From a virus: a DNA stretch of 22,983 nt. Made by a program: the position numbers and the translations under genes. The stretch spans positions 1-22,983 of IMG/VR virus record IMGVR_UViG_3300046000_000001. One strand, given 5' to 3'. Below, piece by piece: positions 217 to 11,767 of this stretch (positions within the stretch are counted from its first letter, which is position 1; every line of letters begins with the position of its first letter). Under the pieces are notes generated by a model. The model saw only the letters and a list, made by a program, of their open reading frames with translations, was not told where the DNA came from and did no database searches.

Positions 217-251
217 TAAAGGAAAACCCCTACGGAGTGAACCATAGGGGT
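217..251 (-). terminator. Intrinsic terminator, leftward
   Basis: Read on the minus strand, ACCCCTATGG (251-242) pairs with CCGTAGGGGT (235-226). This is a 10-bp stem with one G-U pair, closing a 6-nt loop TTCACT. A U-rich tail TTTTCCTTT follows at 225-217. Stem, loop and U-tract are in the right order only on the minus strand; on the plus strand no U-run follows the hairpin. It would end the transcript started at the minus-strand promoter at 433-461. Confidence 0.75.
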
Positions 252-426
252 GCATCAGGTATTGGTTATCTTACAGACGAGGTAGCCTACGTAGTCCACG
301 AGGAATCTGCATCAGTCTGACCTTAGGCCAACCTGTAGCGAATCTGTAGCTTCTCCTTAAGTATAGCGTAGGAGTGAACCTTGAGGGAAGAATACTATAG
401 TTATATACTAGGGTCCGCCAAAGGAC
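220..426 (-). ncRNA. Candidate phage small RNA, about 200 nt
   Basis: The sequence shows a consensus sigma70 promoter (433-461, minus strand), a predicted start near 426 and a strong intrinsic terminator (251-217), with no ORF of useful size between them. The 5' end can form a small hairpin (GTCC 426-423 with GGAC 416-413). The body holds a direct repeat GCTACAG (350-344 and 339-333), two copies of GGTTCACTCC (380-371 and 243-234, the second inside the terminator hairpin) and the split module GTCAGACTGA (321-312) with CTCGTCTGTAAGAT (281-268). The module also occurs, unsplit, in the leader of the gene at 11204. I recognise no known RNA family. It could be a regulatory RNA, a dual-function RNA encoding the 13-codon peptide at 271-312, or a leader whose terminator is sometimes read through. 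Transcription is inferred from the sequence only. Confidence 0.5.
271..312 (-). CDS. Mini-ORF inside the small RNA, 13 codons
   Basis: On the minus strand an ATG at 312-310 opens the reading frame MQIPRGLRRLPRL, ending at TAA 273-271. An AAGG Shine-Dalgarno-like sequence lies 8 nt upstream (324-321). The peptide is strongly basic (four Arg in 13). The start codon uses the last base of the first shared module and the stop codon lies inside the second, so the 30-nt insertion that splits the module lies entirely within this frame and is a multiple of three. I know no homolog. Such short frames arise by chance, so this is a weak call that rests on the ribosome-site spacing and the coincidence with the module. 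Confidence 0.2.
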   Translation of the reverse strand: MQIPRGLRRLPRL

Positions 427-432
427 AGTTTT

Positions 433-461
433 ATTATACACAGGTTTTTCACTTCTGTCAA
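433..461 (-). promoter_or_regulatory. Consensus sigma70 promoter, leftward
   Basis: On the minus strand TTGACA (461-456) and TATAAT (438-433) are both perfect consensus hexamers, separated by the optimal 17 bp. Transcription should start near 426 and run left into the terminator at 251-217. The bases just before the -10 (CCTGTG) resemble those of the three rightward promoters in this window. Confidence 0.75.
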
Positions 462-6750: not shown

Positions 6751-8495
6751 TGGCCGGAACTACCATCGAACTTGAGCACCTGCTTAACCCCGATACTCTC
6801 GCTGTCGAGATCGCTAATCGTTGGGTCGAGTGGAACTCTCTGCGTGACAAGTGGCTTGTCGAAAAGAAAGAACTCCGTAACTACCTCTACGCTACGGACA
6901 CTCGTACGACGAAGAATGCTGCCCTTCCGTGGTCGAACTCTACGACGACCCCTAAGCTGACGCAGATCATGGACAACCTCCATGCGAACTACTTTGCTAC
7001 TCTGTTCCCCCAGCAGAAGTGGATGCGTTGGGAAGGCACCTCGGCTGCAGATGGCACTAAAGCTAAGCGTGATGTCATTCAAGCGTACATGGACAATAAG
7101 GTCCGTCAGTCTGACTTTGTGAACACCGCTTCTAGCCTTCTGTACGATTGGATTCAGTACGGTAACTGCTTTGCTACTGTCGAGTGGAACCAAGACTACA
7201 ACGTCAAGGAATCCGGCGAAGTAACGACGAATTACATTGGACCTCGTCTGGTCCGTATTTCTCCTTACGACATCGTATTTAACCCTACGGCCTCTGACTT
7301 CTACAAGACGCCCAAGATCATCAAGAGCATTCTTACCCTCGGTGAGATCAAACGGATGATCGACAAAGACCCGTCTAAGGCTCATTGGCAAGCCATTATC
7401 GACAAGATGATGTACGCTCGGGCTTCTATCCGTTCGGCTGACTCTGCGTATAACAAAGCTGACGGTTTCATTGCTGATGGCTTTACGTCGATCCAGCAGT
7501 ATTATGAGTCGGACTATGTTGAGGTTCTCTCGTTCTACGGGGACATCTTCGACTACAACGAGAACAAGCTCCACTCGGATCGTATCATCACTGTTGTCGA
7601 CCGTGCTTACGTTTTGGACAATGAAGAGAACCCCTCGTGGCTGGGCCATGCGCCTATCTTCATGTCGGGTTGGCGTCCTCGCCCGGATAACCTGTACGCT
7701 ATGGGTCCGTTGGATAACCTCGTCGGTATGCAGTATCGTATCGACCACCTTGAGAACCTTAAGGCAGACGTATTCGACCAGATTGCCTACCCTGTGATGA
7801 AGATTCGTGGGGACGTAGAGGACTTTGACTTTGCACCGGGTGCTCGTATTTACCTTGGTGAAGAAGGCGACGTAGGCTACCTGCAGCCCGATGGCACTGC
7901 CCTTCAAGCTGACCTGCAAATCCAACTCCTTGAGAACAAGATGGAGGAGATGGCTGGTGCTCCTCGTCAGGCTATGGGTATCCGTACGCCCGGTGAGAAG
8001 ACTGCCTTTGAGGTCCAGAGCCTGCAGAACTCAGCCTCGCGTATCTTTGAGCACAAGACTGCCCACTTTGAGCGTACGTTCCTTGAGCCTATTATGAACG
8101 CTATGCTGGAAGTTGCTCGTCGTAACATGAACATGTCGGACACCATCCGGGTTCTTGACGACGCCACTGGGGCTATCTTGTTCCGTAGCATTACCAAAGA
8201 CGATATCACTGCCAAGGGTAAGATTGTTCCTGTCGGTGCTCGTCACTTCGCTGAACGTGCTCGTCGGGTACAGAACCTTACGCAGCTTTACCAGCTTAAG
8301 CTTGCCGACCCCACTATTGCCCCTCACTTGTCGGGTAAGGAGATGGCTAAGATCATGGCTGAAGAGCTTGGTGAGCCTCGTCTGTACGGTGAGAACATCA
8401 GCGTTATCGAACAACTTGAGACCCAACAGACCGTTCAGGAAGCCGAGATGGTTAACCAAGAACAACTGATGGCTGCTCAGCAGATGGGTGTTTAA
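6750..8495 (+). CDS. Portal (head-tail connector) protein
   Basis: 581 residues. It forms the dodecameric ring at the unique vertex through which DNA enters and leaves, and to which the tail attaches. Recognisable podovirus portal segments include the N-terminal helix EIANRWVEWNSLRDKWLVEK, then TTTPKLTQIMDNLHANYFAT with LFPQQKWMRW, the clip and wing region with PRLVRISPYDIVFNPTA, and the stem region GPLDNLVGMQYRIDHLENLK with the downstream AGAPRQAMGIRTPGEKTAFE. The C-terminus is Gln- and Glu-rich, as in T7-like portals. Position directly after the terminase and before the scaffold is canonical. The start shares one base with the terminase stop. Length fits the family. Confidence 0.92.
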   Translation: MAGTTIELEHLLNPDTLAVEIANRWVEWNSLRDKWLVEKKELRNYLYATDTRTTKNAALPWSNSTTTPKLTQIMDNLHANYFATLFPQQKWMRWEGTSAADGTKAKRDVIQAYMDNKVRQSDFVNTASSLLYDWIQYGNCFATVEWNQDYNVKESGEVTTNYIGPRLVRISPYDIVFNPTASDFYKTPKIIKSILTLGEIKRMIDKDPSKAHWQAIIDKMMYARASIRSADSAYNKADGFIADGFTSIQQYYESDYVEVLSFYGDIFDYNENKLHSDRIITVVDRAYVLDNEENPSWLGHAPIFMSGWRPRPDNLYAMGPLDNLVGMQYRIDHLENLKADVFDQIAYPVMKIRGDVEDFDFAPGARIYLGEEGDVGYLQPDGTALQADLQIQLLENKMEEMAGAPRQAMGIRTPGEKTAFEVQSLQNSASRIFEHKTAHFERTFLEPIMNAMLEVARRNMNMSDTIRVLDDATGAILFRSITKDDITAKGKIVPVGARHFAERARRVQNLTQLYQLKLADPTIAPHLSGKEMAKIMAEELGEPRLYGENISVIEQLETQQTVQEAEMVNQEQLMAAQQMGV

Positions 8496-11018: not shown

Positions 11019-11055
11019 GGGGTGTTGCTTAAGTGTGACACCCCACACTATTTTG
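11019..11055 (+). terminator. Candidate terminator, two overlapping hairpins
   Basis: GGGGTGT (11019-11025) can pair with ACACCCC (11038-11044). Alternatively AGTGTG (11032-11037) can pair with CACACT (11044-11049), followed directly by ATTTT. The second is short but has the better U-tract position. The two stems share bases and exclude each other. Position after the head genes and before a new promoter fits partial termination. Confidence 0.5.
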
Positions 11056-11075: not shown

Positions 11076-11103
11076 TTGACAGATTCTCAAAACAGTGTAT
11101 AAT
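11076..11103 (+). promoter_or_regulatory. Consensus sigma70 promoter of the tail operon
   Basis: Perfect TTGACA (11076-11081) and TATAAT (11098-11103) with a 16-bp spacer, preceded by CAGTG like the other promoters here. The start is expected near 11110, giving a leader of about 95 nt before the ATG at 11204. It gives the tail and internal-core genes their own transcript. Confidence 0.8.
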
Positions 11104-11109
11104 AAGCTT

Positions 11110-11203
11110 AAGTGCTTCCCAATGGACATATACTGTATATCTCTATAGCTTCTAACGTCAGACTGACTCGTCTGTAAGATGATACAGCTTAAGGACTCTC
11201 CGT
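11110..11203 (+). promoter_or_regulatory. Structured 5' leader of the tail operon
   Basis: The leader holds a 13-bp dyad ATATAC-T-GTATAT (11128-11140) and a hairpin CAGAC-N6-GTCTG (11159-11174). The hairpin lies inside a 24-nt module (11157-11180) whose two halves also occur, 30 nt apart, in the candidate small RNA on the minus strand at 268-321. The ribosome site AAGGA (around 11192-11196) follows. An ATG at 11179 opens a 10-codon frame that overlaps the true start out of frame, and another 8-codon frame lies at 11122-11148; neither has a clear ribosome site. Confidence 0.45.
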
Positions 11204-11767
11204 ATGGCTAACGTAAACCACAACACTCTGACTGACCCTTACCTCCACGAACCCAAGGGTGTCTCTACTGCTCTGGCAGGTCAAATCTACGTAGCTGATG
11301 GTGCTGGTAGTGGAGATTGGGTAGAGAATAGCCGTATCGTAGGTGGGTACCTTACGTTCTCCACTGGCAGTCCGTACGCCCACTCTGTCACTACCTCTGA
11401 TACCGTTCTGAACCCTACCTTCACTCTGTCGACCAATAACGGATTTACAGGGTTGTCGTCCCCTAACGCTCGTATCCGTTACGATGGTACTGAGACCATT
11501 AACGCTAGCATGGACGCAATCTTCTCCGTTCAGCAATCTTCTGGGTCGGCTAAACAAGTTCAGATGGCTTTCTTTAAGAATGGTACGGAGCTTACAGGTA
11601 GCCGTATGATTGCTACCGCAGACTCTGGTCAGTGGCACGTCATTGCTCTTAAGTTTAATACGACTATGGCGACTAACGATTACCTTGAAGTGTTCATCAA
11701 GGCTGACGCATCAGCTACCATTAACTTTGCTTCTGGCTACCTCCGCATCAGTGGGATTGCAGCGTAA
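11204..11767 (+). CDS. Fibre protein with C1q/TNF-like fold (inferred)
   Basis: 187 residues. The N-terminus MANVNHNTLTDPYLHEPKGV with a following AGQIYVADGAGSGDW is a recurrent anchor of head or tail fibre proteins in marine podoviruses. The C-terminal part, from about residue 88, alternates strands (RIRYDGTETINASMDAIFSV, then QMAFFKNGTEL and MATNDYLEVFIKADASATIN), with a KNG turn and an NDYLEVFIKA strand. This is the pattern of a trimeric jelly-roll of C1q/TNF type used for receptor binding. AAGGA precedes the ATG. It is first in the tail operon. The structural role is likely; whether it sits on head or tail, and the fold, are inference. Confidence 0.6.
   Translation: MANVNHNTLTDPYLHEPKGVSTALAGQIYVADGAGSGDWVENSRIVGGYLTFSTGSPYAHSVTTSDTVLNPTFTLSTNNGFTGLSSPNARIRYDGTETINASMDAIFSVQQSSGSAKQVQMAFFKNGTELTGSRMIATADSGQWHVIALKFNTTMATNDYLEVFIKADASATINFASGYLRISGIAA

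Follow-up and report, generated by a model that had tools for sequence, protein, structure and literature searches.

The stretch of DNA analysed here (hereafter, the window) spans 22,983 bases and makes up an entire IMG/VR virus record, which is classed as linear. Judging from the gene order and the homology of the terminase, portal, coat and adaptor genes, it corresponds to the late arm of a Veravirus-like phage (Cobavirinae, Zobellviridae). Among isolates, CRP-5 (a Roseobacter phage) and ICBM2 (a Lentibacter phage) are closest to this marine Rhodobacteraceae phage. Two sites in the window are considered here. The left one, which is bounded by the phrog_8035 gene (588-1112) on one side and by the genome end on the other, carries a predicted small RNA (sRNA) on the minus strand; the right one, between a terminator that follows the preceding gene (11019-11044, plus strand) and the tail operon, is the leader of the first gene of this operon (11204-11767, plus strand; phrog_38624, of unknown function). 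A Pfam search with the neighbouring genes produced zero matches. Cobavirinae such as SIO1 lack an RNA polymerase of their own (PMC6775973); neither “promoter” nor “non-coding” occurs in the main text of that paper, a literature search for an SIO1 small RNA and for Zobellviridae transcriptomes returned nothing relevant, and this analysis found nothing on how Cobavirinae time gene expression.

The predicted sRNA would be transcribed from a promoter (433-461, minus strand; TTGACA-17-TATAAT) that matches the sigma-70 consensus in 12 of 12 positions, up to a strong intrinsic terminator of 10 pairs with the loop UUCACU (226-251), yielding a transcript of ~205 nt (218-427), the start being placed from the promoter. 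On the minus strand, this transcript opens with a hairpin, GUCC-UUUGGC-GGAC (426-413), and a second part, UAGUAUAUAACUAUAG (410-395), which together make up a 5' element (395-426), followed by the first copy of an AAGGA...CAGAUUC motif (CTTAAGGAGAAGCTACAGATTC, 340-361) and a similar stretch, CCTAAGGTCAGACTGATGCAGATTCC (302-327). No Rfam 15 family reached the gathering score anywhere in the window, and the candidate at 218-461 (minus strand) is unannotated in the CRP-5 and ICBM2 records. In ICBM2, the counterpart of the left site is flanked by the last structural gene, which ends at 40241, and the direct terminal repeat (40749-40907), and contains an sRNA gene (40364-40652) with the promoter at 40364 and the terminator at 40620-40652.

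We collected the sRNAs of the two clades nearest to the window, the window-like clade (G1) and its sister clade (G2), through the terminator hairpin, and read the region upstream of the phrog_8035 gene in the best 80 of 368 relatives of this gene. Outside these clades, an opposite-strand promoter matching the consensus in 11-12 of 12 positions is present at the same place in 53 of 56 loci, which are partly redundant and in which the promoter is the best within a 170-bp stretch. In most sRNAs of the relatives, a TATAGTATATAC-type stretch comes after an initial hairpin, the sequence of which changes: among 30 distinct 5' ends, the mean stem score was 7.4 vs 2.8 for shuffled sequences, and the AT motif was found in 29 vs 14.8. 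CAGAT precedes the terminator in 20 of 28 distinct sRNAs (13 of these 28 from G1 or G2), compared to 4.8 after shuffling. The predicted transcripts range from 110 to 270 nt across the genus, and the indels between related sRNAs are not multiples of three. With its own promoter and terminator, conservation and no obvious coding capacity, the predicted molecule has the features of a stand-alone phage sRNA. The window sRNA and the sequences upstream of the phrog_8035 gene in contigs L258-L315 together represent a genus-wide candidate ncRNA family with a 12/12 promoter, a changing 5' hairpin, the TATAGTATATAC element and a terminator.

The surroundings of the sRNA are rich in short repeats. ACGACA-type repeats lie upstream of its promoter (~462-516) and, inverted, just past the terminator (~190-205; ACGACAAGAA / TTCTTGTCGT), and similar words occur in relatives. 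Palindromes of the GTGATCAC type are repeated near the predicted terminal repeat (~30-85) and also occur downstream of the sRNA terminator in contigs L279-L311. Double-hairpin inserts of the type GCCC-n-GGGC-GTC-GCAC-n-GTGC, which look like small mobile palindromes, are present in the sRNAs of 43436_350 and 42397_108 and past the terminator in 46009_5052.

At the right site, the tail-operon promoter (11076-11103, plus strand; TTGACA-16-TATAAT) likewise matches the sigma-70 consensus in 12 of 12 positions. The 5' part of the leader combines an AU-rich hairpin with CTATAG (11121-11146, plus strand) and is followed by a ~45-nt insert (11156-11200, plus strand) that ends near the start codon and includes the Shine-Dalgarno sequence TAAGGA (11190-11195). 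Among 14 distinct tail leaders, the 5' stem score was 6.4 vs 4.4 for shuffled sequences, and the AT motif was found in 10 vs 3.4; the 5' architecture of the tail leaders is related to that of the sRNA across the genus. A GC hairpin with TATA...CTATAG is also seen in predicted early-arm leaders (G001, 32440-32530; G002, 36230-36340), so this 5' element may be general to the phage transcripts. In three contigs (L148:4521-4985, L160:794-1291 and L167:4448-4999), small ORFs with an HNH-like motif (YHVDHIVPIQGK...HVPWNLQ) are inserted between the leader and the tail gene; Pfam searches with two of the three gave no match.

The two sites are connected by a shared module. In the sRNA, it is split into GTCAGACTGA (321-312, minus strand), which is contained in CCTAAGGTCAGACTGATGCAGATTCC, and CTCGTCTGTAAGAT (281-268, minus strand), separated by a 30-nt spacer (282-311), and in the leader insert the two pieces are directly joined as GTCAGACTGACTCGTCTGTAAGAT (11157-11180, plus strand), with a stem (11159-11163/11170-11174), a 6-nt loop and a UAAGAU tail. 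The preliminary description, which reported these 24 nt as common to two non-coding transcripts, is exact in letters and coordinates; at the sequence level, both transcripts are there, are conserved and have the module in common. It had also proposed a motif search across the genome; within the window, the 14-mer occurs perfectly twice and the 10-mer three times, the third copy being inside the portal gene (7106-7115). The 14-mer alone is present in >100 IMG/VR contigs and was dropped as a collection query because it is too common. When the two short non-coding transcripts were simulated with a first-order Markov model, the best joined match in 3000 runs was 16 and none reached 24, which excludes chance as the source of the ordered 10+14 match. 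All three copies of CTGTAAGAT in G001, an assembled relative of 44 kb, are located in the leader (14713-) or the sRNA (28602+, 28637+). The split pattern CAGACTGA-N0..30-CGTCTGTAAGA matched 21 IMG/VR contigs, of which L186, L193 and L194 show no sequence resemblance in the surroundings of the match; the others match at an sRNA or a leader of this phage group. The spacer in the sRNA differs among relatives in both length and sequence, so the loop or domain is variable, and the split by 30 nt is one of its states.

The module is present in 9/9 distinct sRNAs and 5/5 distinct leaders of G1; GTCAGACTGA is invariant in these sRNAs, as is the CGTCTGTAAGAT part of the second piece, which is absent in G2. 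Relatives that lack the module in both places, which the preliminary description named as counting against its proposal, do exist: the sRNAs of CRP-5 and ICBM2 are devoid of it, as are those other relatives that were read, and the ~45-nt insert is missing from the leaders read outside G1 and G2 (those of CRP-5, ICBM2, P12053L, SIO1 and further contigs). Judging from this distribution, the module is clade-specific and younger than the predicted sRNA, which is genus-wide.

In the same alignment columns, the G2 leaders carry TAGGGT-TCAGAT-ACCCTA, or a variant of it, instead of CAGAC-TGACTC-GTCTG. The exact 23-mer TAACGTAGGGTTCAGATACCCTA was found in 6 of 2.9 million IMG/VR contigs, namely, four G2-type leaders (35670_1139, 45999_99, 42397_108 and 17766_39) and two G2 sRNAs (42465_3246 and 20042_4326). 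The two sRNA contigs include no leader, so this 23-nt match links separate contigs; where a single G2 contig carries both loci, the best hairpin match has a length of 13 nt in 42397_108 and 10 nt in 17766_39, and 43436_350 has none of at least 9 nt. The G2a leaders share 10-13 nt with several other G2 sRNAs. One contig, 35670_1139, combines a G1 sRNA with a G2a leader, and in it an inserted gene separates the leader from the tail gene. In G2, a different hairpin is common to the same two places, which suggests a functional or recombinational link between them. Contig 20042_4326 (IMGVR_UViG_3300020042_004326; L144/L332) seems to be chimeric, with parts of the phrog_8035 gene flanking the sRNA in opposite orientations.

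The CAGAC/GTCTG stem proposed for both RNAs is supported for the leader only. In the alignment of the leaders, 87.9% of the cells in the hairpin are paired, compared to 26-44% in slid controls, RNAalifold independently chose the same hairpin, and the check for compensatory changes showed that four of the six stem pairs changed on both sides, with at most one such pair in the slid controls. All these two-sided changes fall on the single split between G1 and G2 and, therefore, may represent a single replacement. In the sRNA, the five CAGAC/GTCTG pairs never vary within G1, and CUACAGAU or GCAGAUU would pair better with the 3' arm; furthermore, AGACTGATGCAGATTCC, the 5' part within the stretch at 302-327, is largely conserved in G1 and G2, whereas GTCTG is gone in G2. 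We therefore rejected conservation of this pairing in the sRNA. Also rejected, for lack of covariation, was a long alternative helix in the leader, CUGUAUAUCUCUAUAG/CUGUAAGAUGAUACAG. Neither the sRNA nor the leader is more stable than shuffled sequence, and unusual stability was accordingly discarded as a feature of either RNA.

Most economically, the module originated by copying of a hairpin between the two non-coding sites. The reading we prefer, with a probability of about 0.35, is that the leader hairpin was copied within the genome and that the sRNA serves as a decoy or co-target. The genus has a predicted stand-alone sRNA between the conserved late phrog_8035 gene and the genome end, the 3' part of which, in the two clades nearest to the window, shares a short stem-loop module with the ~45-nt leader insert beside the ribosome-binding site. 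Under the preferred reading, the leader hairpin would be a cis-acting RNA element targeted by a nuclease or RNA-binding protein of either the host or the phage; the translation of the tail mRNA or its stability would be set by this factor, and the sRNA, by displaying the same element, would compete for this factor or be handled by it. That the RNAs are made, that the factor exists and that the sRNA acts in this manner is what we infer from the sequence comparisons. This reading is supported by the 24-nt match, which is beyond chance and, in G001, confined to the two transcripts; by the presence of the module in all G1 sRNAs and leaders; by the different hairpin at the same two places in G2, which suggests that the match itself may matter; and by the two-sided changes in the leader stem together with the 5' architecture shared across the genus. 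It is weakened by the unconserved pairing in the sRNA, the mismatched G1/G2a combination in 35670_1139, the between-contig nature of the 23-nt match, the confinement of the stem changes to one split, the ordinary stability of both RNAs, a leader conservation in G1 only like that of the preceding gene, and the fact that most of the genus lives without the module. A stronger version, in which the 3' part of a genus-wide sRNA mimics the hairpin of the phage's own tail leader and the two change together from clade to clade as a co-evolving decoy-target pair that times the tail genes, appears rather unlikely.

Nearly as likely as the decoy or co-target reading is that only copying took place: the leader insert would derive from the 3' part of the sRNA, or the reverse, with re-homogenisation by recombination, and the hairpin would act only locally, for example, as an mRNA stabiliser or a spacer for a new ribosome-binding site. 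Several observations are consistent with this possibility. The insert is a discrete addition, with its own TAAGGA, between the old end of the leader (CTAACG) and the start codon, and small hairpin inserts (TTACTCGAAGAGTAACTGTAAGA; GCCCGTAGGGC-type) come and go in the sRNAs. In G1, identity is 95-100% for the leader and 97-100% for the preceding gene (97-98% in most members), such that conservation of the leader does not exceed that of this gene, whereas the gene downstream is only 74-82% identical in most G1 relatives. Thus, by sequence comparison, the start codon of the tail gene (~11204) is a mosaic boundary, at which genes were inserted in three contigs, and this favours recombination as the source of the copying. 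Copying alone, however, does not predict matches in exactly these two transcripts in both clades.

Control at the DNA level, whereby palindromes downstream of both promoters (CAGAC-N6-GTCTG, TAGGGT-N6-ACCCTA and TATAGTATATACTATAG-like) would be operators of a phage regulator, is quite unlikely. An AT-rich palindromic element follows both promoters across the genus, and dimeric regulators typically have half-sites spaced by 11 bp, as in the leader, but the half-sites in the sRNA gene are 30 nt further apart, with variable spacing, and the other strong promoters found are not followed by the CAGAC module.

It is very doubtful that the sRNA is an attenuated leader similar to lambda pR'-6S RNA-tR', in which a promoter-proximal -10-like pause element (TATAGTATAT) would load an antitermination factor that permits read-through past the sRNA terminator, via the terminal repeat, into the early genes of a concatemer. 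This possibility fits the features seen across the genus, namely, a promoter matching the consensus, the -10-like element, a transcript of 110-270 nt and a strong terminator, as well as the predicted early genes that come next on the same strand in G001; nevertheless, by eye, convergent-gene-like sequence seems to follow the terminator in L132 and L140, an antiterminator is not known, and the module is left unexplained. No less doubtful is a role of sRNA transcription beside the terminal repeat in concatemer processing or packaging, like that of T7 phi-OR towards CJ: in ICBM2, the sRNA gene (40364-40652) sits past the last structural gene and ahead of the terminal repeat (40749), which agrees with such a role, but the predicted end of transcription is ~97 nt short of the repeat, and there would be no reason for the module in the leader. 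Least probable of all is regulation of the tail leader by antisense pairing, given that, although AGAAGCUA of the sRNA is complementary to UAGCUUCU of the leader in G1 only, the module has the same sense in both RNAs and the duplex energies (z -0.5 to -1.3) are no better than those of shuffled sequences. Pairing of the sRNA with gene starts in the window was not supported either, the best unrelated z being -2.6 (the gene at 1851, one of 22).

The predicted sRNA recurs with a consensus promoter at a fixed position in dozens of marine phage genomes and has no counterpart in Rfam, which makes it a concrete candidate regulator, and the clade-matched hairpins provide a testable link from it to the tail operon; hosts of ICBM2 and CRP-5 are available in culture. 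The comparisons with known systems that follow concern the possible mode of action, with no claim of membership. CsrB/CsrA-type sponges are small RNAs that repeat hairpins of mRNA leaders located near the ribosome-binding site; here, too, the sequence of a leader hairpin is found in a small RNA, without an established repeated GGA-in-loop signature. Of the features expected of protein-titrating sponge RNAs, a sequence common to sRNA and leader is present. In lambda, pR'-6S RNA-tR' is a short terminated transcript with a promoter-proximal element, and in T7, phi-OR and CJ involve transcription near the genome end; in contrast, the sRNA described here runs opposite to the late genes from a host sigma-70 promoter, and we know of no Q or phage RNA polymerase for the window phage, unlike in lambda and T7. 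In the HK022 put-type antiterminator RNA, cis-acting 5' hairpins suppress downstream terminators, and the sRNA and the leader also carry predicted 5' hairpins. T4-type phages have short non-coding stem-loops common to intergenic sites. For these, the phrase “mobile stem-loop regulatory cassettes” appears in the literature (PMC4177764 and others). In the present case, by contrast, there are two sites only, one of them a discrete sRNA, and the sister clade matches a different hairpin. Finally, AgvB is an mRNA-mimicking phage sRNA that decoys the host sRNA GcvB (PMC12197685). The likeness lies in a phage-encoded RNA carrying a sequence that is also present in an mRNA, and AgvB works as a decoy; the difference is that here the common part is a hairpin of a phage mRNA leader, in a T7-like marine phage.
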